Below are positions 1,998-51,088 of a DNA stretch of 64,000 nt, piece by piece. The notes under the pieces were generated by a model. That model had not been told where the DNA came from. It made no database searches and was given only the letters and a program-made list of their open reading frames with translations. The stretch's first letter is position 1; each line of letters begins with the position of its first letter. Source of the stretch: Bdellovibrionales bacterium CG12_big_fil_rev_8_21_14_0_65_38_15 (GTDB lineage Bacteria > Bdellovibrionota > Bacteriovoracia > Bacteriovoracales > Bacteriovoracaceae); the NCBI GenBank assembly GCA_002787775.1, contig PCUW01000028.1, forward strand, positions 62,739-126,738, written 5' to 3'. Both the position numbers and the translations under genes were made by a program.

Positions 1998-2927
1998 TTA
2001 GCTGCGTCTCGTCATTAAGTATTCGTAGATATCATTAAACTCTGCCTCATTATTAAACTTAAGGGCAATAGTTCCAGCACCGGCTTTGCTAGATTTGATT
2101 TGAAAATGAAAGCCAGTATTTTGCTCTAATTTTTGTCTTACCTGATCCACTCTTTCATCAAGGAATGGATTTTTCTTTGCTTCAGACACAGGCTTGATCT
2201 TAGTCTTCATGAGTTTTTCAAGTTCACGAACTGACAGTTGATCAGTGACTGCAATATTGGCCAAACGAATTGTTCTTTCACGGTCTTTTTCAGCAGCAAG
2301 AATTTTTGCGTGACCAAAAGATAATAATTCCTTTTGAGTCATTTCGATAACATCTCTAGGAAGTTTTAAAATTCTTAAATAGTTGGCAATGGTCGATCTT
2401 TCTTTTCCAAGTTTCTTGGCGACTTCATCTTGAGTCATTTGAAAGTCTTCCATTAATTGGAAATATGCAAGAGCCTCTTCAACACAGTTGAGGTCTGCGC
2501 GCTGAACGTTTTCAATGATCGACATGACCATCTTGTCTTTTTCAGTTCCACGCTTAACGACGACTGGCACCTGTGAAAGACCTGCTTTTTTGGCGGCTCT
2601 TAGTCTTCTTTCACCAGCGATCAATTCAAAATTTCCACCATCAAGTTGCATAACGATTAGGGGCTGAATGATACCGTTTTCAGTTATTGAGTTTGCAAGC
2701 TCTTCTAGGTTTTTTTCTTTAAAGATTTTTCTTGGCTGACCAGGATTAGCCTTAATGCGTGAAACATCGATCAACAATGGTGTGTTAACGATTTCAGTTT
2801 TTGTAATAATTCTTTCTTCTTGCTCTTGGCGATTCAATTCTTCTTTTAGCTGTTTGGCCAAAAGTTGATTTGGAGTATCTTGAATAAGAGAAGCGATTCC
2901 TTTACCGAGTGCTATTTTCTTTGCCAT
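1998..2927 (-). CDS. parB: chromosome-partitioning protein ParB
   Basis: A 309-residue DNA-binding CTPase switch that loads at parS. The N-terminal domain has GERRLRAAKKAGL (the CTP-binding GERRxRA motif, about residue 105) and ENVQRADLNCVEEALAY; the central helix-turn-helix is QDEVAKKLGKERSTIANYL; the C-terminal residues (from about 240) form the dimerisation domain, preceded by a charged linker. Length is typical. The start MAKKIALGKGIASLI matches the family's MxKxxLGKGLxALI leader. It follows parA by 25 bases, and three parS-type sites lie within about 3.4 kb upstream. Confidence 0.97.
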   Translation of the reverse strand: MAKKIALGKGIASLIQDTPNQLLAKQLKEELNRQEQEERIITKTEIVNTPLLIDVSRIKANPGQPRKIFKEKNLEELANSITENGIIQPLIVMQLDGGNFELIAGERRLRAAKKAGLSQVPVVVKRGTEKDKMVMSIIENVQRADLNCVEEALAYFQLMEDFQMTQDEVAKKLGKERSTIANYLRILKLPRDVIEMTQKELLSFGHAKILAAEKDRERTIRLANIAVTDQLSVRELEKLMKTKIKPVSEAKKNPFLDERVDQVRQKLEQNTGFHFQIKSSKAGAGTIALKFNNEAEFNDIYEYLMTRRS

Positions 2928-2952: not shown

Positions 2953-3807
2953 TTAGTTTAATTGAGATTGAAGCTGTTGATCCAATCGTTCAATCCTTGG
3001 AACGTCGGGCAAATTATTTTCAATTTGTTGAGCTGCTCTTGTGCGCTCTCTTAATAGTAATTCTTTAGCAAGTGATAGATAGGCTTTTGATCCAGTTGAT
3101 TCAATATCGTAAAGAATGACTGGCTTGCCAAAACTTGGTGACTCAGAAAGTTTTACGTTTCTTGGAATCACAGTTTCAAAAACTTCCGTCGTGAAGTGAT
3201 TTCTAATTTCTTCTGAAACTTGCTTGTGCAGACTTACGCGTGAATCAAACATAGTCAGAAGAATGCCTTCCATACTTAGATTAGGGTTTAATGATGAACG
3301 AATTAAACGAACAGTGTTCATTAATTGCGCTAAACCTTCCATTGCATAGTATTCAGTTTGCAGTGGAACGATGAAGCTATTTGCAGCATTAAATGCATTT
3401 AAAGTTAAAAGGCCTAATGAAGGTGGGCAATCAATAATGATGTAGTCGTAATCATCTGCGACTGTCGCAAGTGCATTTTTAAGTTTTGCTTCACGTGCCA
3501 GAACACTAACAAGCTCAATCTCAGCGCCAATTAAATTATTGTCCGCCGGTGCAACATCTAGATGTGGTAATTCTGTTTTGTAGATACATTTTTTCAATGA
3601 GGCATTACCGATCAACGCATGGTAAATATTTGAATCTTCATGCTGCGCCTTGTCAAGGCCGAGACCAACAGAGGCATTTCCCTGAGGATCTAAGTCAATT
3701 AATAGGGTTCTCTTTTCAGCAACCGCTAAACAAGCCGCCAAATTGATAGAAGATGTAGTCTTACCTACTCCGCCCTTTTGATTGGCCATTGCAATAATTT
3801 TAGACAT
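2953..3807 (-). CDS. parA: chromosome-partitioning ATPase ParA/Soj
   Basis: A 284-residue ParA/MinD-family ATPase. It has the deviant Walker A KGGVGKTTSSINLA near the N-terminus, the DLDPQGNAS motif (about residue 40), and the Walker B region YIIIDCPPSLGLLTLNA (about residue 125). ATP-dependent binding to nucleoid DNA drives movement of ParB-parS complexes. About 30 extra C-terminal residues (NNLPDVPRIERLDQQLQSQ) go beyond the short Soj core. It is in the common order mnmG-rsmG-parA-parB. Confidence 0.97.
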   Translation of the reverse strand: MSKIIAMANQKGGVGKTTSSINLAACLAVAEKRTLLIDLDPQGNASVGLGLDKAQHEDSNIYHALIGNASLKKCIYKTELPHLDVAPADNNLIGAEIELVSVLAREAKLKNALATVADDYDYIIIDCPPSLGLLTLNAFNAANSFIVPLQTEYYAMEGLAQLMNTVRLIRSSLNPNLSMEGILLTMFDSRVSLHKQVSEEIRNHFTTEVFETVIPRNVKLSESPSFGKPVILYDIESTGSKAYLSLAKELLLRERTRAAQQIENNLPDVPRIERLDQQLQSQLN

Positions 3808-3844: not shown

Positions 3845-4489
3845 TTAAAGAAAGTCACTCGCATTGACAAGATTTTTCTTTAAGCCTGAAGGAATATATG
3901 TTCCACGTGGAACAACTTTAAAGCCCATAAGTCTCCGTTTTTCTGTTCCAGGAACATCAAAAAACTCATCTGATATTTGCATCCAATCCTTAATACCGCT
4001 TAAATCCTCTAATTGATCAAGGCCTGGGCCTTTATAGAAAAAAACTGTGATATTTGTTCCATGTGGAACAAATATTTTTGCCAGAAGATCTTTTATCTTA
4101 CCAACGGCCTTAAAGGTAATGACACAATCTCTGTCCATTAAAACTTCTTCGACTCTTTGGTGCATAGGACGAACATTTTTTAATTCAAGTCTTTCACAGA
4201 TCAAGCCTACGGCATCTGCCTTTTTTCTTTTCCCGTCGAATCCAACAAAATTATAACCTGGCTCTTTCCAAGCAAGTGGTACTAATGGAAATCCACCGCC
4301 AAACCCAATGTCTACGAGAAGCTTTTTATCTGCTAGCTCTTTTGCAAAGAATTTTGATTGTTCATAGGGAATGAGTGAATCGACGATCTGTTTATTGTAA
4401 AAATCTTCTTCATCTAGGATTCGAGTTAGATTTAATCCTGCAAGCTCACCTTTTAGAATGGCGAGATAATCCTGAGCTAGCTTTCTCAT
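3845..4489 (-). CDS. rsmG: 16S rRNA (guanine527-N7)-methyltransferase RsmG
   Basis: A 214-residue class I SAM methyltransferase that modifies G527 of 16S rRNA. It shows the SAM-binding motif LLVDIGFGGGFPLVPLAW (about residues 55-72; the family is usually D(I/V)GSGAGFPG), then an acidic-loop FVGFDGKRKKADAV and RPMHQRVEEV. Its ATG overlaps the mnmG stop by one base (TAATG), implying translational coupling. Two parS-like palindromes are embedded in the coding sequence, where they encode VPRGT and VPHGT. Confidence 0.95.
   Translation of the reverse strand: MRKLAQDYLAILKGELAGLNLTRILDEEDFYNKQIVDSLIPYEQSKFFAKELADKKLLVDIGFGGGFPLVPLAWKEPGYNFVGFDGKRKKADAVGLICERLELKNVRPMHQRVEEVLMDRDCVITFKAVGKIKDLLAKIFVPHGTNITVFFYKGPGLDQLEDLSGIKDWMQISDEFFDVPGTEKRRLMGFKVVPRGTYIPSGLKKNLVNASDFL
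3899..3914. promoter_or_regulatory. parS: parS site 1 (ParB-binding)
   Basis: TGTTCCACGTGGAACA is a perfect 16-bp palindrome matching the bacterial parS consensus TGTTNCACGTGNAACA. It lies inside rsmG, close to parA-parB. Confidence 0.9.
4055..4070. promoter_or_regulatory. parS: parS site 2 (one mismatch)
   Basis: TGTTCCATGTGGAACA differs from the perfect site at 3899 by one central base (CACGTG to CATGTG). It is 156 bp away in the same gene. The central change probably weakens ParB affinity (inference). Confidence 0.7.
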
Positions 4490-6324
4490 TATAGAAACTC
4501 GCTGGCTACAGTTACTAGGGTTGCGGGCCTAATACCTTCAATTCTTTTTAGAGCGCCAAATGTTGTTGGCCTATGCTCTTTAATTCTTTGCTTGCACTCG
4601 GTGGAAATATTGGCTGAAGTAAGAACCTTTTCCCAAATGATTCGCTTATTACCTAAATTGAGCAATCTGGCGTTTTCTTGATTCGCTCTATTAATATAAC
4701 CATCGTACTTAGTTGAGATAGCAACAGCACTAACTACACGCTGTTCAAAAACCAGACCTTTATTTGATAAGAAATCGCTTAATGCCAAGATTGGTCCACG
4801 AGTATCACTGCAAACAATCTCGCTAAGCTTTGAGTTGTTTCTTTCGCGTACGACGAAAGATTGAACCATGCCAAGAAGCAGATCATATTCCTGCATAAAA
4901 GAAGATATCTTCTTATCAATATCAAGGTCTAGGCCCAAAGATGTTCTATATTTGAACATTCTAACGATAGAATTATCTTCACGGATAGATAGACGGTTTT
5001 CTGATCTTGCAGTGAAGAGTCTATAAGGCTCATCTCGCTTTAAAGTAACAAGATCATCGATCAAGACACCAATATAAGATTCACGGCGATCTAAAACGAA
5101 AGGATCCATACCCTTAAGCGATAAAGCTGCATTGATGCCGGCAATTAATCCTTGGCCAGCAGCTTCTTCATAACCTGAAGTACCATTAACCTGTCCAGCG
5201 AAATATAAACCTGGTAGCTCACGGTATTGGAGCGAATGATCTAGCTCTAGTGTATCCACAACGTCATACTCGACAGCATAACCATATACATCGATCTCGG
5301 CAGACTCAAAGCCTTCAATAGATCTAACGAAATCAAGCTGAACGTCTTTTGGAAGGGAGCTTGAAATGCCGTTTGGATATATACTTTCTCCATCAAGTGT
5401 TTCTGGCTCTACGAAGACATGGTGTTCGTTTCTATCTGGATATCTAAAAGCTTTATCTTCAAGCGAAGGACAATATCTCGCGCCTACTGCTTTAATTTTA
5501 CCGTTGTACATAGGAGAGCGCTCTTTATTGGAGCGAACAGTCTCCATCGTCGTTGTATTGGTATGGGTGATATAACAAGGAACCTGAGTCAAGAAGCGAT
5601 CAGTTCTGGAGTGAAGAGAAGAAAAGTTCTCGGTCCTAGGGTCAGATTCTTGGGGAACCATTTTGGAGAAGTTTAGACTAGACTTTAAGAGCCTAGGTGG
5701 TGTTCCAGTTTTAAATCTAGTATCAAGAGTCTTGATTTGAGAAAAAAGATCCTTAAGTCCAACAGATTTATCACATCCGTGCCTTCCACCACTTAAAGAC
5801 TCGTCCCCAGTATGAAGTTTTCCATTTAAAAAAGTACCAGTGGTTACAATAAGCTTTTTTGAAGAAAGCTTTGACCCATCATCAAGGGAAACGATGAAAA
5901 GATCATTCGAATTAGATATAGAAACAGCTTTTTTGCGTACGATTGTTAAGTTTTGAAGACTAGATAAAGTCTCTTCAACAGTGGCGGCATAAATATCTTT
6001 ATCAACTTGAAAGCGAGTTGATTGAACAGCAGGTCCCTTTGATTCATTAAGGATTCGAACTTGAATGGCAGACTTATCAGCAATGATTGGCATTAGACCA
6101 CCAAGCACATCAATCTCACGTACGACTTGACCCTTTCCAACGCCACCAATAGAAGGATTGCAAGGTGTTGAACCAAGCATTACTCCAGGCATAGAAAGTA
6201 AGCCAATTTTCAAATCAAATTGATGAGCAATATGTGCGGCCTCTACACCGGCATGACCACCGCCAATAATGAGAATATCGAAATCCACAAAATTCTCCGA
6301 ATGTTCCACGTGGAACAAATGCAA
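4489..6324 (-). CDS. mnmG: tRNA uridine-5-carboxymethylaminomethyl modification enzyme MnmG (GidA)
   Basis: A 611-residue FAD protein that, with MnmE, makes cmnm5U34 in tRNA anticodons. It has the dinucleotide-binding GGGHAGVEAAHIA near residue 22, NPSIGGVGKGQVVREIDVLGG (the family signature, given here in part as positions), the PRLL region, and the C-terminal TFGALKRIEGIRPATL helical domain that contacts MnmE. Length is about normal (620). The first codons (MHLFHVEHSE) lie over a parS site. The gene follows mnmE by 58 bases and runs directly into rsmG. Confidence 0.97.
   Translation of the reverse strand: MHLFHVEHSENFVDFDILIIGGGHAGVEAAHIAHQFDLKIGLLSMPGVMLGSTPCNPSIGGVGKGQVVREIDVLGGLMPIIADKSAIQVRILNESKGPAVQSTRFQVDKDIYAATVEETLSSLQNLTIVRKKAVSISNSNDLFIVSLDDGSKLSSKKLIVTTGTFLNGKLHTGDESLSGGRHGCDKSVGLKDLFSQIKTLDTRFKTGTPPRLLKSSLNFSKMVPQESDPRTENFSSLHSRTDRFLTQVPCYITHTNTTTMETVRSNKERSPMYNGKIKAVGARYCPSLEDKAFRYPDRNEHHVFVEPETLDGESIYPNGISSSLPKDVQLDFVRSIEGFESAEIDVYGYAVEYDVVDTLELDHSLQYRELPGLYFAGQVNGTSGYEEAAGQGLIAGINAALSLKGMDPFVLDRRESYIGVLIDDLVTLKRDEPYRLFTARSENRLSIREDNSIVRMFKYRTSLGLDLDIDKKISSFMQEYDLLLGMVQSFVVRERNNSKLSEIVCSDTRGPILALSDFLSNKGLVFEQRVVSAVAISTKYDGYINRANQENARLLNLGNKRIIWEKVLTSANISTECKQRIKEHRPTTFGALKRIEGIRPATLVTVASEFL
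6302..6317. promoter_or_regulatory. parS: parS site 3 (ParB-binding)
   Basis: TGTTCCACGTGGAACA is identical to the site at 3899 and lies on the first codons of mnmG (encoding LFHVEH). It is 2.4 kb from the first site. Confidence 0.9.
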
Positions 6325-6382: not shown

Positions 6383-7849
6383 TCATTTACCTATACAGAA
6401 ATTGTTAAAAATATGATGCAACACGTCATCGGGGGTAAATACACCTATAAGCTCTTGAGAAACATTAACAATTAGGGATAATTCTGAGGAAATAACAGCT
6501 ATGTCGTCGATAGTATTGAATAAATCTACAAATTTATTTATTTTCACTGATAAATCAATAATTAGCTCTCGCTGTCTTGCAACTAAAACTGGCTTGTTTT
6601 TAGTAAGAATATCATACTTATATCCAGCTAAAGTATTGATTATATGAAGTATATCGCCATAAAAGATGTCCGGTCCTATAGAACCATCAAATAATTGTGC
6701 CCCTATAGAACCAAAATCAATATTTGCCCCCATAGGACCAGAACTGCGATCTGCCCCCATAGAACCACCTTCAACTTGCCCCCATAGAACCATAGGTATT
6801 GAAGCTGAAAACTGTGACCGTAAATTGGAAAATTTAGACTTAAAATCCGGTGTATCAGCGTGAGTAAAAATAATGAGATCAATATCAACGTCGTTGAACT
6901 TATTTTCAAAATGAGAGTGAGGATTAACAATCAAAATTTTAAAAAAAGCGTTGTTGATTTGAAAGTGTGAGCGCTTGATACCCTCTTGCTCAATAACATC
7001 AACACCATCCCTAAGGCCTGCAGTATCGATGAGGCGAACTCGCCCTAAATCTAGAAGAAGTGATTCAGAAATATAATCACGAGTCGTTCCTTCAATAGAT
7101 GAAACGATAGAACGCTCATCGGCAACAAGATAATTAAAAACTGTGCTCTTACCAGCATTAGGAAGGCCGTATAAAACGATACTAGGCTCTAACAAAGAAC
7201 CAATAGGAGTTAAGCAGCGTTTTTCGAGATGAGAAATATCTGAATGAATTTTTTTTAAATGCTTATGTTGTAAATTCTTTATCTGTTCTTCACCGACGTC
7301 GTCAGAAAAATCAATCGATAATTCAACACTGGCAGTAAACTCTAATAATGATTTGTAAAGTTGATGATATTTTAAATACAACTCGCCATTAAGCTGAGAA
7401 AGCCCCTGCTCAAATAAAAAGTTAGAATCAGCAGATAAAAGTAAGTCTAAACCTTCAACTTGAGCAAGGTTGAGTTTTCCATTCTTAAAAGCTCTATAGG
7501 TAAATTCACCTGGTTGAGCTCTAGAAAAAGAAAATTGATTCACAATAAAAGAGATAATCCTTTCAACATGAACGATGTTTCCATGCAAAGAAATCTCAAG
7601 AACATTTTCACCGGTAAAGCTAAATGGCGTTGGAAAATATGTCACCAATACATCGTCTAAAACTTCTTTGGTATTTGAAAGAAGATTAAGATGAATTTGT
7701 TTGCGAGGAGTAAACTTAGAAACTGGCTTATCAAAAAAAGATTGTAGTGAATCCAGAGAATCGAATCCACTTAGTCTCAAAACCGCTAGACCCGCGTTTC
7801 CCTGCAAGCATGTGCTACAAGCAACGATGGGCCCAGTGGCATAATTCAT
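6383..7849 (-). CDS. mnmE: tRNA modification GTPase MnmE (TrmE), with repeat insertion in the G domain
   Basis: A 488-residue protein, against about 455 in the family. The N-terminal formyl-THF-binding domain (LRLSG, PGEFTYRAFKNGKLNLAQVEG) and helical region are normal. The G domain has G1 GLPNAGKS, G2 GTTRDYI and G3 DTAGLRDG; the protein ends FCIGK, the catalytic C-(I/L/V)-G-K tail. Two oddities: the G4 motif reads THAD rather than NKxD, and about 40 extra residues follow it, made of a nonapeptide repeat G-(S/P)-(M/I)-G-(A/P)-x4 encoded by the DNA repeat at 6674-6792. The gene abuts yidC and partners functionally with the adjacent mnmG. Confidence 0.95.
   Translation of the reverse strand: MNYATGPIVACSTCLQGNAGLAVLRLSGFDSLDSLQSFFDKPVSKFTPRKQIHLNLLSNTKEVLDDVLVTYFPTPFSFTGENVLEISLHGNIVHVERIISFIVNQFSFSRAQPGEFTYRAFKNGKLNLAQVEGLDLLLSADSNFLFEQGLSQLNGELYLKYHQLYKSLLEFTASVELSIDFSDDVGEEQIKNLQHKHLKKIHSDISHLEKRCLTPIGSLLEPSIVLYGLPNAGKSTVFNYLVADERSIVSSIEGTTRDYISESLLLDLGRVRLIDTAGLRDGVDVIEQEGIKRSHFQINNAFFKILIVNPHSHFENKFNDVDIDLIIFTHADTPDFKSKFSNLRSQFSASIPMVLWGQVEGGSMGADRSSGPMGANIDFGSIGAQLFDGSIGPDIFYGDILHIINTLAGYKYDILTKNKPVLVARQRELIIDLSVKINKFVDLFNTIDDIAVISSELSLIVNVSQELIGVFTPDDVLHHIFNNFCIGK
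6674..6792. repeat. five-copy minisatellite inside mnmE
   Basis: Copies of CCC(C/T)ATAG(A/G)ACCA start at 6674, 6701, 6728, 6755 and 6780: period 27 bp three times, then 25 bp. The four 27-bp-phased copies encode the nonapeptide repeat of MnmE; the fifth (MVLWGQ) is read one frame off. The core also occurs as the palindrome after parB (1981-1996). Confidence 0.85.
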
Positions 7850-22055: not shown

Positions 22056-24218
22056 ATGAATAAAGTTTTAACCCTTTTCATATTGTCGCTGATTTTTGTT
22101 TCATGCTCTGGAAAAAAGAGAGAACAGACAAGAGTTGTTTATACTGCTTCACTAATAGGTGGCGTGTCTTTTAGTGGATCTCTTGCAATTTGGGGCAGCA
22201 ATGATCGTGGAGATCAATTAGCAATTCCATACGGCACGACATCTAGTGCAGATACTATAAATATTCCAAATGGTAATTGGACATTTTTCGCTATTGGTTG
22301 GGAAGGATCAAATAATCTTGAAGGTAGTACTAAGTGTGCACAATCAACTTCAACTTTAAATGGCGGACAGTCGACAATCAATTTAACACTAAGCTCTTCT
22401 GTTTGCTCAGGATCCAGTTTTTCTGGTGGATCATATGTATCAGCAAATCAATTTTTACCTTTAAAAATAATTGGTTGTTATAACCCTGGCCCGTTAAGTA
22501 GCGGTCAAACTTGTGACAACTCGAATAAGGCGAATATTTCATCCGTAAAAGTTAAAATTGAATCAAATACACTCGATTCAAGTAAAACATTTGATCCAAT
22601 TTATTCAGAATGCTTTGATGAAAGTTCTGTATCATCTGGACTTCATACAACAGCGTTAACAATACCAACGGCACCTGGAGTTAACTTTCCTTTTAGCTTT
22701 GTGGTTGAGGCTTACTCAGATACTGGCTGTGTAACTTTATCTGAAGAGATAGAAGTAAAGGATAGTATGTTGGCCTTTACTTCAACACATGAAACCTACA
22801 CAGACACAATCAGTACTGAACTATTTTTAATTTCAGACAATCAGGGAAGCGCCGGGGTTGCGTCCCCTGCAAGCATGACTTTGATTACGTCCTCGCCGAA
22901 CTTTGATAATACACCCGACATTCAGGTTTCAGGTTTAACGTCGGGATTTAATATTAAGTTTTATGATGATGCTAGTTGTACAAATCAAATTGGAAGCGCG
23001 GCAATTACTACAGCGACAGAAACATTTACACTAAGTTCGCCACTGGCTACAGACGGAACTTATACAATTTATTCTATTCAAGAAAATAGTGGAGTTGACT
23101 CTGTTTGTTCATCAAGTTTTGTAACATACGTCTATGACTCAACAACGCCAACGGCACCCACAGCAGTAGCAATTACAACTGCTTTGAATAATAATTTTCC
23201 GATCATTAGTGTTAGTGGATTAGAAATCGGTGCAAATGTTGAACTTCATGCCGATGCTTCCTGTACTTCTCTTCAAGCGAGTTTTACAGCTGGTTCGACA
23301 ACTGGTAGCGGTACGATCTCAAGTCTTGCTGATAACACTTATACCATTTATGCCATGCAGACTGACACTGCTGGAAACCAGAGTCTATGCTCTACGGCTA
23401 ATGCTAACTTTACTATAGATACAATTGCTCCAGCACAAGCGAGTTCAGTAACACTAAGCTCTCCAGCGACATCACCTGGAAATATTACAACTCCAATTAT
23501 AAACGTAAATTTTTCTGAAGGGACAGCTGACGTTGAGCTGCACACTGACCCTACATGTAATAGTAACGTTGCTTCACAGCTTGGGGCATCTAATCCTGCT
23601 ACATTAACGACATCAACATTAAGCGAAGGAAACTATGTTTTCTATGCGAAGATTATTGATCCTGCCGGTAATAGTTCATGTTCAAGTGCCTTTGTGGCAT
23701 ATGATGTTGACTTAACTGCCCCAAGTGTAACAGGCCTTTCAAATAATGCGGGTGTTTATCAAACATTTAACTGGTCTTGGGGATGTACTGAAACCTGTAG
23801 CTATGATTACGATATCTCACAAAGTGCAACACCAACATTTCCGAACTCATTTTCAGCCACAACGAGTGATTCTGTCGTTAGCGGTGATGGTGTCTTTTAT
23901 ATTCATGTTAGAGCACAGGACTCCGCTGGAAATATTTCAGCAGCACAATCAGTAACTGTAAATATTGATAATACGGCCCCAGCTTATGACAATACAAAGA
24001 TTCCAAACTTTGATGAGATACTTTATACATCAGGATCAAGTGTTAAAGCTTATTGGCAGGGCTTTACTGATGTTAATATGGATACCTTTGACGTGATCGT
24101 TTATAGTAACCCTGGTTGTTCAACCTTGGTTGGTCAACCTTGGTTGGTCAATATAATCTTGGCAATTCATCTCCAGCATTTATACCAACAACACTTGCAA
24201 ACGGTAATTACTGGATAA
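22056..24218 (+). CDS. Ig-like-repeat lipoprotein, N-terminal part of a frameshifted gene
   Basis: A 720-codon frame with a lipoprotein leader (MNKVLTLFILSLIFVSCSGKK, lipobox FVSC). Behind it are about four bacterial Ig-like modules of about 95 residues carrying a Cys pair, recognisable by repeats such as VELHADASCTS, VELHTDPTCNS, IKFYDDASCTN and ending GTYTIYSIQENS, DNTYTIYAMQTD, EGNYVFYAKIID. In the fourth module (VIVYSNPGCSTLVGQ) the frame is broken at 24120-24147 by a 14-bp tandem duplication; about 24 further codons are out of frame. Removing one repeat copy joins this to the following frame. An outer-membrane or surface lipoprotein is likely; its ligand is unknown. Confidence 0.8.
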   Translation: MNKVLTLFILSLIFVSCSGKKREQTRVVYTASLIGGVSFSGSLAIWGSNDRGDQLAIPYGTTSSADTINIPNGNWTFFAIGWEGSNNLEGSTKCAQSTSTLNGGQSTINLTLSSSVCSGSSFSGGSYVSANQFLPLKIIGCYNPGPLSSGQTCDNSNKANISSVKVKIESNTLDSSKTFDPIYSECFDESSVSSGLHTTALTIPTAPGVNFPFSFVVEAYSDTGCVTLSEEIEVKDSMLAFTSTHETYTDTISTELFLISDNQGSAGVASPASMTLITSSPNFDNTPDIQVSGLTSGFNIKFYDDASCTNQIGSAAITTATETFTLSSPLATDGTYTIYSIQENSGVDSVCSSSFVTYVYDSTTPTAPTAVAITTALNNNFPIISVSGLEIGANVELHADASCTSLQASFTAGSTTGSGTISSLADNTYTIYAMQTDTAGNQSLCSTANANFTIDTIAPAQASSVTLSSPATSPGNITTPIINVNFSEGTADVELHTDPTCNSNVASQLGASNPATLTTSTLSEGNYVFYAKIIDPAGNSSCSSAFVAYDVDLTAPSVTGLSNNAGVYQTFNWSWGCTETCSYDYDISQSATPTFPNSFSATTSDSVVSGDGVFYIHVRAQDSAGNISAAQSVTVNIDNTAPAYDNTKIPNFDEILYTSGSSVKAYWQGFTDVNMDTFDVIVYSNPGCSTLVGQPWLVNIILAIHLQHLYQQHLQTVITG

Positions 24219-49773: not shown

Positions 49774-51088
49774 TATTGCGTTGCTATTTTTTTCAATTCT
49801 TGAGCTTCTTAAAATAGATGAAAAATATAAGATCTATTCAGAACAAATAAATACATTGATCGCTATCGGCTTGTGGATTGTATTGGGTGGAGATGAAAGC
49901 TTTGTTCCCATAGCCCTGGGTGCGGTGATCAGTATAAAAACATTATTCAAGATTAAACTACCAATAGAGCTTAATAAACATATCTTGCCGTTAACAATAG
50001 TATCTCTTGCCGGAATTGAAACAAGCATTATCTATAGTTTTATTATCGTTTCAATAACTCATAGAACGATAATTTTAAATGAGCTTAAAAATATTATTGG
50101 TATCTTAATCCTCTATTTGCTTTCTTTATATTTGAAGGATTTTTCGTTAACGATTTCTTATATTTCAATATTCTTTTGCAGCATTTTTATATTCCTTAAT
50201 TATCGACAAAATAATAGGCTCAGTTTATTTTTGTGGACTTTACTTCAATCAAAATTTGCCTTAGCGGTATTTGATCAAAAGTTATATTTCATCATTGAGA
50301 TGGGAATCGTTGCAAGCATTGTATTTGCCGTTTTCGTTTTGTGGTTAGAAAAAAGACAAAGCTTAACATGGTCATCAATAAAAAAAATTCAAACACTATT
50401 TGTCTGGTATTCAACACTTCAATTTGGCCCGTTTGGTTTTTGGCTTTCACTTTCATTTTTTGCCTTTATAAAGGAAGTCATTTCAAACAAACAAATTGAT
50501 GATGAGCACGCCGTTTTAAAGGTTAAGCCAATAGCCTTAACAATCTTTTATCTCATTTCAATATCACTTCCCGTTTTCTTTTTGATAAATGTAAAAGAAA
50601 TTAAAACAACAGTTCTTGGCGCCATCGTTTCATTTCTTTTTTTATTGGTTGGAGCTCGGTGGTTTAGAGAGTTGAAAACCATGATTATTGAAAAAAGATT
50701 AGATAAGTGGCACATTCTTGATATTTCAGCAATCGTATTTTTAACAGTGATGTTATCTTACCGACTAGTAGGCGGAAATATTCTTGGTATTATAATTTAT
50801 GCGTCAATCTCAATTCTTATACTGGTCTTGGTTGCGGGATTAAAGATAGATGAGTACTTATTTTCGAATTTATCAATGCCAAGATTATTATTGAAATTAG
50901 ATACAGACAGAACAATAAAGACGAGTCGTAAGGCATTAAGTAATATCAAAATAACACCCATCGATAATCTCATAAAATTTGTGTTTGATCTATTTCGAGA
51001 AACTTTGATCTTTGTTGAGAGAAACTTTCTTGTCATATTTTTACTAGTTTTTTTCGTCGTGTTTTACATTGGTGGTGGCTTTGCATAA
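49766..51088 (+). CDS. about 15-helix membrane protein, candidate diverged NuoL-like antiporter subunit
   Basis: A 440-residue protein (ATG at 49766, overlapping the previous stop; a TTG two codons earlier is possible). It keeps two signatures of the antiporter-like NuoL/M/N fold: SLAGIETSIIYSFIIVS (Glu85) against NuoN LYLGIETLSILSYALAS, and SSIKKI...WYSTLQFG (Ile205-Gly221) against SIKRMLAFSSIGHAG of NuoN and YSTISQLG of NuoL. A Lys in LLQSKFALAVF lies where NuoL has GKSAQFPL. It ends with an amphipathic stretch plus a final anchor (DNLIKFVFDLFRETL, then VIFLLVFFVVFYIGG), as NuoL does. The homology is my inference. Confidence 0.75.
   Translation: MINIALLFFSILELLKIDEKYKIYSEQINTLIAIGLWIVLGGDESFVPIALGAVISIKTLFKIKLPIELNKHILPLTIVSLAGIETSIIYSFIIVSITHRTIILNELKNIIGILILYLLSLYLKDFSLTISYISIFFCSIFIFLNYRQNNRLSLFLWTLLQSKFALAVFDQKLYFIIEMGIVASIVFAVFVLWLEKRQSLTWSSIKKIQTLFVWYSTLQFGPFGFWLSLSFFAFIKEVISNKQIDDEHAVLKVKPIALTIFYLISISLPVFFLINVKEIKTTVLGAIVSFLFLLVGARWFRELKTMIIEKRLDKWHILDISAIVFLTVMLSYRLVGGNILGIIIYASISILILVLVAGLKIDEYLFSNLSMPRLLLKLDTDRTIKTSRKALSNIKITPIDNLIKFVFDLFRETLIFVERNFLVIFLLVFFVVFYIGGGFA

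Follow-up and report, generated by a model that had tools for sequence, protein, structure and literature searches.

The window, the whole 64,000-nucleotide stretch of DNA analysed here, contains the gene order atpF-atpF-bactofilin-parB-parA-rsmG-mnmG-mnmE-yidC-rnpA-dnaA-dnaN-recF, with mnmE near dnaA. A short palindrome occurs six times, five times within mnmE and once between parB and the bactofilin gene, among the following features.

1981-1996, no strand assigned: palindromic site TGGTCCCATAGGACCA in the gap between the bactofilin gene and parB
1998-2927, reverse strand: parB1, encoding the ordinary chromosomal ParB, with ParB_N and HTH_ParB matches
2953-3807, reverse strand: parA1, encoding the ordinary chromosomal ParA
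3899-3914, no strand assigned: ordinary parS TGTTCCACGTGGAACA in rsmG
4055-4070, no strand assigned: parS with one mismatch, TGTTCCATGTGGAACA, in rsmG
6302-6317, no strand assigned: ordinary parS TGTTCCACGTGGAACA at the 5' end of the mnmG ORF
6383-7849, reverse strand: mnmE, the gene that hosts the array (488 amino acids; TrmE_N, MnmE_helical and MMR_HSR1 matches)
6671-6686, no strand assigned: palindromic site CGGTCCTATAGAACCA with two standard halves, encoding GSIGP
6698-6713, no strand assigned: mixed-half site TGCCCCTATAGAACCA, encoding GSIGA
6725-6740, no strand assigned: mixed-half site TGCCCCCATAGGACCA, encoding GPMGA
6752-6767, no strand assigned: mixed-half site TGCCCCCATAGAACCA, encoding GSMGA
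6777-6792, no strand assigned: mixed-half site TGCCCCCATAGAACCA in another reading frame, peptide MVLWGQ
6854-6865, reverse strand: MnmE G4 motif, THAD instead of NKxD (residues 329-332)

Tandem Repeats Finder reports a 27-bp array at 6675-6740. A 14-base core with up to 2 mismatches matches the window 6 times, against 0.52 expected. In the source genome the exact core GGTYCYATRGRACC occurs three times: in mnmE, in the intergenic stretch that separates parB from the bactofilin gene, and on the same contig at a distance of about 37 kb. The window also contains two further short tandem repeats, at 24108-24151 and 50984-51028, with 14-bp and 22-bp units.

The repeat unit in mnmE is a 16-bp palindrome, TGGTYCYATRGRACCA, a consensus derived from sites and flanks aligned across 41 origin regions of one bacterial family, f1, which we read as the Bacteriovorax/Halobacteriovorax group. 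Thirty-six of these regions were chosen without regard to sites (the window and all 35 of genomes G001-G036 with an mnmE match, G030 having none) and five because of their sites (G067, G077, G104, G115 and G128); several are cut by contig ends. The base before the core is T in 112 of the 118 mnmE sites with full flanks and in 35 of 42 other sites, and the base after it is A in 107 of 118 and 41 of 42, respectively. A second half-site, TGCCCC, recurs paired with a standard half of the palindrome, giving the mixed-half sites. Counted with strict ends, the 41 regions hold 145 sites with two standard halves, 47 mixed sites and 1 with two variant halves. The palindrome has the same length as parS (16 bp) and is identical to it at 10 of 16 bases.

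The host ORF has the domain set of MnmE, comprising TrmE_N, helical and GTPase domains and the C-terminal CxGK. It keeps G1 (7145-7168), G3 (7007-7027) and a C-terminal CIGK (6386-6397; residues 485-488), and scores below the NCBIfam equivalog cut-offs (274.5 against 380 and 241.8 against 252.6). The preliminary description had read G4 as THAD, and this is confirmed, although the motif lies outside the interval to which that description had assigned the feature. Alignment of the MnmE proteins of relatives, the check it had proposed, shows [TS]H in place of the N-K of NKxD in 33 of 36 family proteins, the remaining three having SKLD, NKSD and an unclear SFSK; two MnmE proteins of the outgroup family f6, probably the Bdellovibrionaceae, have NKSD and NKTD. 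[TS]H at G4 is an unusual change in a universal GTPase. Judged from these alignments, it is a family-wide trait that is not tied to the array. Indeed, MnmE proteins with a short loop (L177 and L182) still carry the G4 change. This argues against the suggestion that the array concerns the nucleotide pocket, as does the presence of the same palindrome in intergenic DNA, in further genes and in a different frame.

The palindrome has a TATAG centre and is stop-free in only two of its three reading frames, one of which encodes G-(P/S)-(I/M)-(G/E)-(P/A). The units GSMGA, GPMGA, GSIGA and GSIGP occupy MnmE residues 362-393. The four G-(S/P)-(M/I)-G-(A/P) units described initially are therefore present, but at the DNA level mnmE contains five copies, the fifth lying in another frame; its 16 bases are identical to those of the 6752-6767 copy, from which it is spaced by 25. 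Across 36 MnmE ORFs, all 146 pentapeptides of the form [GA][PS][IM][EG][PA] are encoded by palindrome DNA. Within 136 of these units isoleucine is encoded by ATA in 106 of 113 cases, compared with 348 of 1547 elsewhere in the same ORFs, ten units that start with the variant half being pooled with the rest of the ORF. Sites in other frames number 3 of 149, and one of these (L174) may precede the true start codon. Site spacings below 60 bases in mnmE are a multiple of three in 103 of 104 cases, the exception being the 25 of the window; for sites outside intact MnmE ORFs the figure is 18 of 28. Hence, the reading frame is kept where one exists. Regions L152, L169, L173, L175 and L186 yielded no intact MnmE ORF by our filter and were omitted from the codon and frame counts. 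The idea of an in-frame minisatellite of variable length thus survives in part: the repetition is at the DNA level, and copy number and spacing vary among relatives, each species being represented by a single genome, but the copies are mostly rather than wholly in frame.

Were the array a Gly-Pro-rich insertion in the G domain of MnmE, flexible or functional and changing size in the manner of a minisatellite, this would fit both the spacings in multiples of three and the variable copy number. Such an insertion is at odds with the invariable use of palindrome DNA for the unit peptides, with copies between genes and in other frames, and with short-loop MnmE in regions that have sites elsewhere (L177 and L184). 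We consider this explanation very improbable, a function at the protein level being ruled out by the non-coding copies, the other frames and the codon choice. The mnmE repeat is mainly a DNA feature, selected as DNA and not as peptide.

The palindromes might alternatively act in RNA, each forming a short mRNA stem as a hairpin or terminator, and some copies do lie directly 3' of genes, for instance those of the atp operon (L199 and L200). Most copies, however, are inside genes, and the form most often seen on the coding strand, GGTCCTATAGAACC followed by A (42 of 146 units), would place a C-A mismatch in the stem, while GGTTCTATAGGACC, in which G-U pairing is possible, is rarer at 16 units. 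It is mainly this mismatch on the mRNA strand that rules out hairpins or terminators, and we regard a role in RNA as highly unlikely.

The 41 origin regions contain 223 palindrome sites, C or G also being permitted at the site ends in this count, compared with an average of 0.025 over 200 block shuffles, and every region has at least one. Of these, 163 are in mnmE, covering 37 of the 41 regions, 24 are between the bactofilin gene and parB and 8 between parB and parA. The others are in or between mnmG, rsmG, parA, parB, yidC and dnaA; gene limits were taken from tblastn matches, such that a few sites near gene ends may be misplaced. The palindromes thereby surround the ordinary parS sites and parB1. 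Genome-wide, 161 of the 183 exact cores of these 41 genomes fall inside the fetched origin regions, which amount to 664 kb of about 141 Mb (from rounded genome sizes). A row of palindromes is therefore kept near the replication origin across one bacterial family, which includes predators.

This arrangement bears on whether the palindrome could be a selfish or neutral repeat spread by slippage and conversion. Some genomes do have tandem copies with near-identical spacers (L174 and L178). Against this, the two halves of the palindrome are conserved even where the spacers have diverged, few copies occur away from the origin region and the core persists family-wide, making such a repeat scarcely credible. 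The near confinement to the origin region likewise rules out a dispersed repeat, and the copies across family genomes rule out a repeat limited to the source genome.

Several regions depart from the common layout. Three (L198, L199 and L200) have more palindrome copies, which lie downstream of the atp operon at a distance of about 11-12 kb from mnmE. Two congeneric genomes (L196, G108, and L197, G101) share a copy at one position of a ribD-like coding sequence, a gene named from sequence alone, near the contig position of mnmE. The mixed-half mnmE array of L173 (G009) breaks the assembly, leaving copies at two contig ends (G009:C7:18-249). In L178 (G032) dnaA is on the mnmE strand with rnpA and yidC opposite, an inversion relative to the other regions.

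Searches of further genomes delimit the distribution. The exact core GGTYCYATRGRACC is found in 107 of 115 family genomes, at 0-21 per genome compared with 0-2 for a reversed control. GGTYCTATAGRACC is present in 92 of 97 family genomes; among 193 genomes from the rest of the phylum, 4 have it, once each, the groups being counted by hand. A looser pattern matched 16 of 18 family genomes in a set picked mostly for having zero or few exact cores; this pattern admits combinations that are not sites, and some of the 16 (for example G072 and G114) may be chance matches. The two genomes without a match are 62-67% complete. Scanning 84,980 named species for two neighbouring cores returned 86 stretches, 80 of which are listed as loci. 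All 59 family loci among these 80 hold the full 16-mer, and 52 of the 59 hold mnmE, whereas the full 16-mer is absent from all 21 non-family loci, whose resemblance is set aside as chance. The acidobacterial genome Centralia_MAG_134 (L068, L070, L105, L115, L118 and L127) has many stretches rich in CCTATAGG-type repeats; these are in another register, and the full 16-mer was not found in them.

The family also has a second ParB. In a TIGR00180 search of 19 genomes, each of the 14 from the family had a second ParB above the cut-off, and each of the 5 others had a single ParB. A profile built from 11 of these second proteins (ParB2) matched 69 of 72 family genomes at E of about 1e-110 or better and 0 of 168 non-family genomes, where the best match was about 1e-24. 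Adding 37 of 44 further family genomes brings full-length ParB2 to 106 of 116. Of the ten without it, G133, G073 and G114 contain fragments, and G117, G002, G093, G099, G102 and G136, which lack a full match, are 68-84% complete. G026, which has sites and is 99% complete, gave no ParB2 match even at E 10; its parB2 probably lies in an assembly gap, since its parA2 is cut by the contig start. Conversely, G030 and G085 have ParB2 and the site search found none in them (67 and 62% complete, respectively). Site and ParB2 are thus restricted to the same family, which could reflect a single shared ancestry and not a link between them.

In the source genome parA2 lies directly upstream of parB2, and a homologue of it adjoins parB2 in 12 of 12 fetched regions. 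Its product is a ParA-type Walker ATPase (AAA_31, 162.6 bits) encoded in the parB2 operon. ParB2 has a ParB_N match (57.6 bits) and keeps the CTP motif GERR (GERRFRA in the alignment), with no HTH_ParB match in Pfam. Its recognition helix differs from that of ordinary ParB and contains SKSEVHR, conserved in 11 of 11 aligned proteins. The structures nearest to a predicted ParB2 model (mean pLDDT 73, pTM 0.49) are Noc (7nfu, E 1.4e-11) followed by ParB structures, and the nearest solved chains by sequence are Myxococcus ParB and Noc. ParB2 is not filed as Noc because its 95.2 bits with the Noc model TIGR04285 are far below the cut-off of 315.

On single contigs of G003, G014, G007 and G018, mnmE and parB2 are about 300-400 kb apart; since the two share a contig, parA2-parB2 is chromosomal in these genomes. 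No palindrome site was found within the 14-15 kb fetched around parA2-parB2 in any of 12 regions, which rules out self-regulation of the reader gene, and the stray copies outside the origin that were examined fall in or beside unrelated genes. parS is often near its own parAB, such that the absence of sites near parA2-parB2 counts against the palindrome being read by ParB2, as does the missing HTH_ParB match of ParB2.

Covariation between protein and site is suggestive. The ParB2 helix GISKSEVHR[SC] is present in 21 of 21 genomes with mixed half-sites and in 7 of 17 without (Fisher p 4e-5), the helix pattern having been chosen after the alignment was seen. In a tree-aware test, 2-3 of 4 independent pairs changed as expected and none in the opposite direction, which is not significant (p 0.25).

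The palindromes could be origin DNA sites read by a different protein, either a dual-specific ParB1 or another protein of nucleoid or replication control. All of the DNA-level evidence fits this equally, and the sites surround the ordinary parS and parB1. ParB1, however, seems to keep its own site: parS, with up to 2 mismatches, is kept in 39 of the 41 regions, and contig ends truncate the two that lack it. Moreover, ParB2, found only in this family, is an evident candidate for a spare reader. In 11 of 14 family genomes TIGR00180 also matches a third ParB-like protein more weakly, at 29-42 bits (for example G000:C14:149151-149429); the same search did not find it in G005, G021 and G032, and the last two have sites, which argues against it as the reader. 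We think a reader other than ParB2 unlikely, if still a serious contender.

We judge it probable that the mnmE array is instead the centromere, parS2, of a second, Noc-like and family-specific ParAB system, housed in a permissive loop of MnmE. In this model the origin-proximal, parS-like sites would be read by ParA2-ParB2, encoded some 300-400 kb away where this can be measured. A ParB2 dimer would be expected to bind the 16-bp palindrome and load as a CTP clamp, and its spreading would assemble a further nucleoprotein cluster alongside the usual ParB1-parS complex. ParA2 would then move or position this second, partition-like complex. The array would lie mostly in the loop after G4 because this loop tolerates extra Gly-Pro-rich peptides. 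The second complex may serve polar anchoring, division control in the manner of Noc, or regulation akin to that in Bdellovibrio.

The proposed system resembles ParABS in having a ParA-type ATPase and a ParB-type CTPase in one operon and a 16-bp palindrome clustered at the origin. It differs in being a second set beside the ordinary one on the same chromosome, in a site that has diverged from parS, and in that the sites are far from parA2-parB2, with an array inside mnmE. Origin-clustered short inverted repeats are also a property of RacA of Bacillus, where they may serve as an anchor; RacA is not known as a member of the ParB family, nor are its sites known to resemble parS. Rickettsia palindromic elements likewise place palindromic DNA in frame within genes, but the units here are short and nearly confined to one locus rather than dispersed.

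A close precedent is Noc of the Firmicutes, a ParB paralogue with its own 16-bp parS-like site (PMC7383237) and, by structural comparison, the best match to the predicted ParB2 model. Noc is confined to Firmicutes and its NBS sites, consensus TATTTCCCGGGAAATA, are spread over the chromosome (PMC7383237). Measured against that account, the sites here have another consensus and cluster at the origin, and parB2 is paired with a parA2 of its own. In Bdellovibrio bacteriovorus, a host-specific factor is reported to render the DNA near parS unsuitable for the clustering of ParB while cells are not replicating (PMC10547168). The ParB2 profile search found no ParB2 in f6 genomes, and of those surveyed for the core G286 alone was positive, with a single core. 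That factor is therefore probably another system than ParB2 and its palindrome, though similar regulation is a possibility.

Within the open-licence literature searched, which covered one form of the palindrome, a second ParABS or a ParB paralogue, paired or orphan ParB systems, parS and ParB of Bacteriovorax, and chromosome segregation in Halobacteriovorax, we found nothing about the system proposed here and no description of two full ParAB-site systems at one origin. Whether one chromosome indeed has two complete and independent partition systems, with different centromeres interleaved at one origin and one array dual-coded in a universal housekeeping gene, strikes us as evenly balanced.

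The finding supplies a named protein pair and DNA site that are directly testable, in a family with predators among its members. It would add, beside Noc, a second chromosomal ParB paralogue that has a 16-bp site to itself, and offers a case in which a DNA array shapes the peptide of an unrelated enzyme, MnmE. If the reading is correct, the second system could allow duties to be split, for instance with many-copy segregation during non-binary growth in prey on one side and, on the other, an origin that is anchored or silenced during the attack phase.
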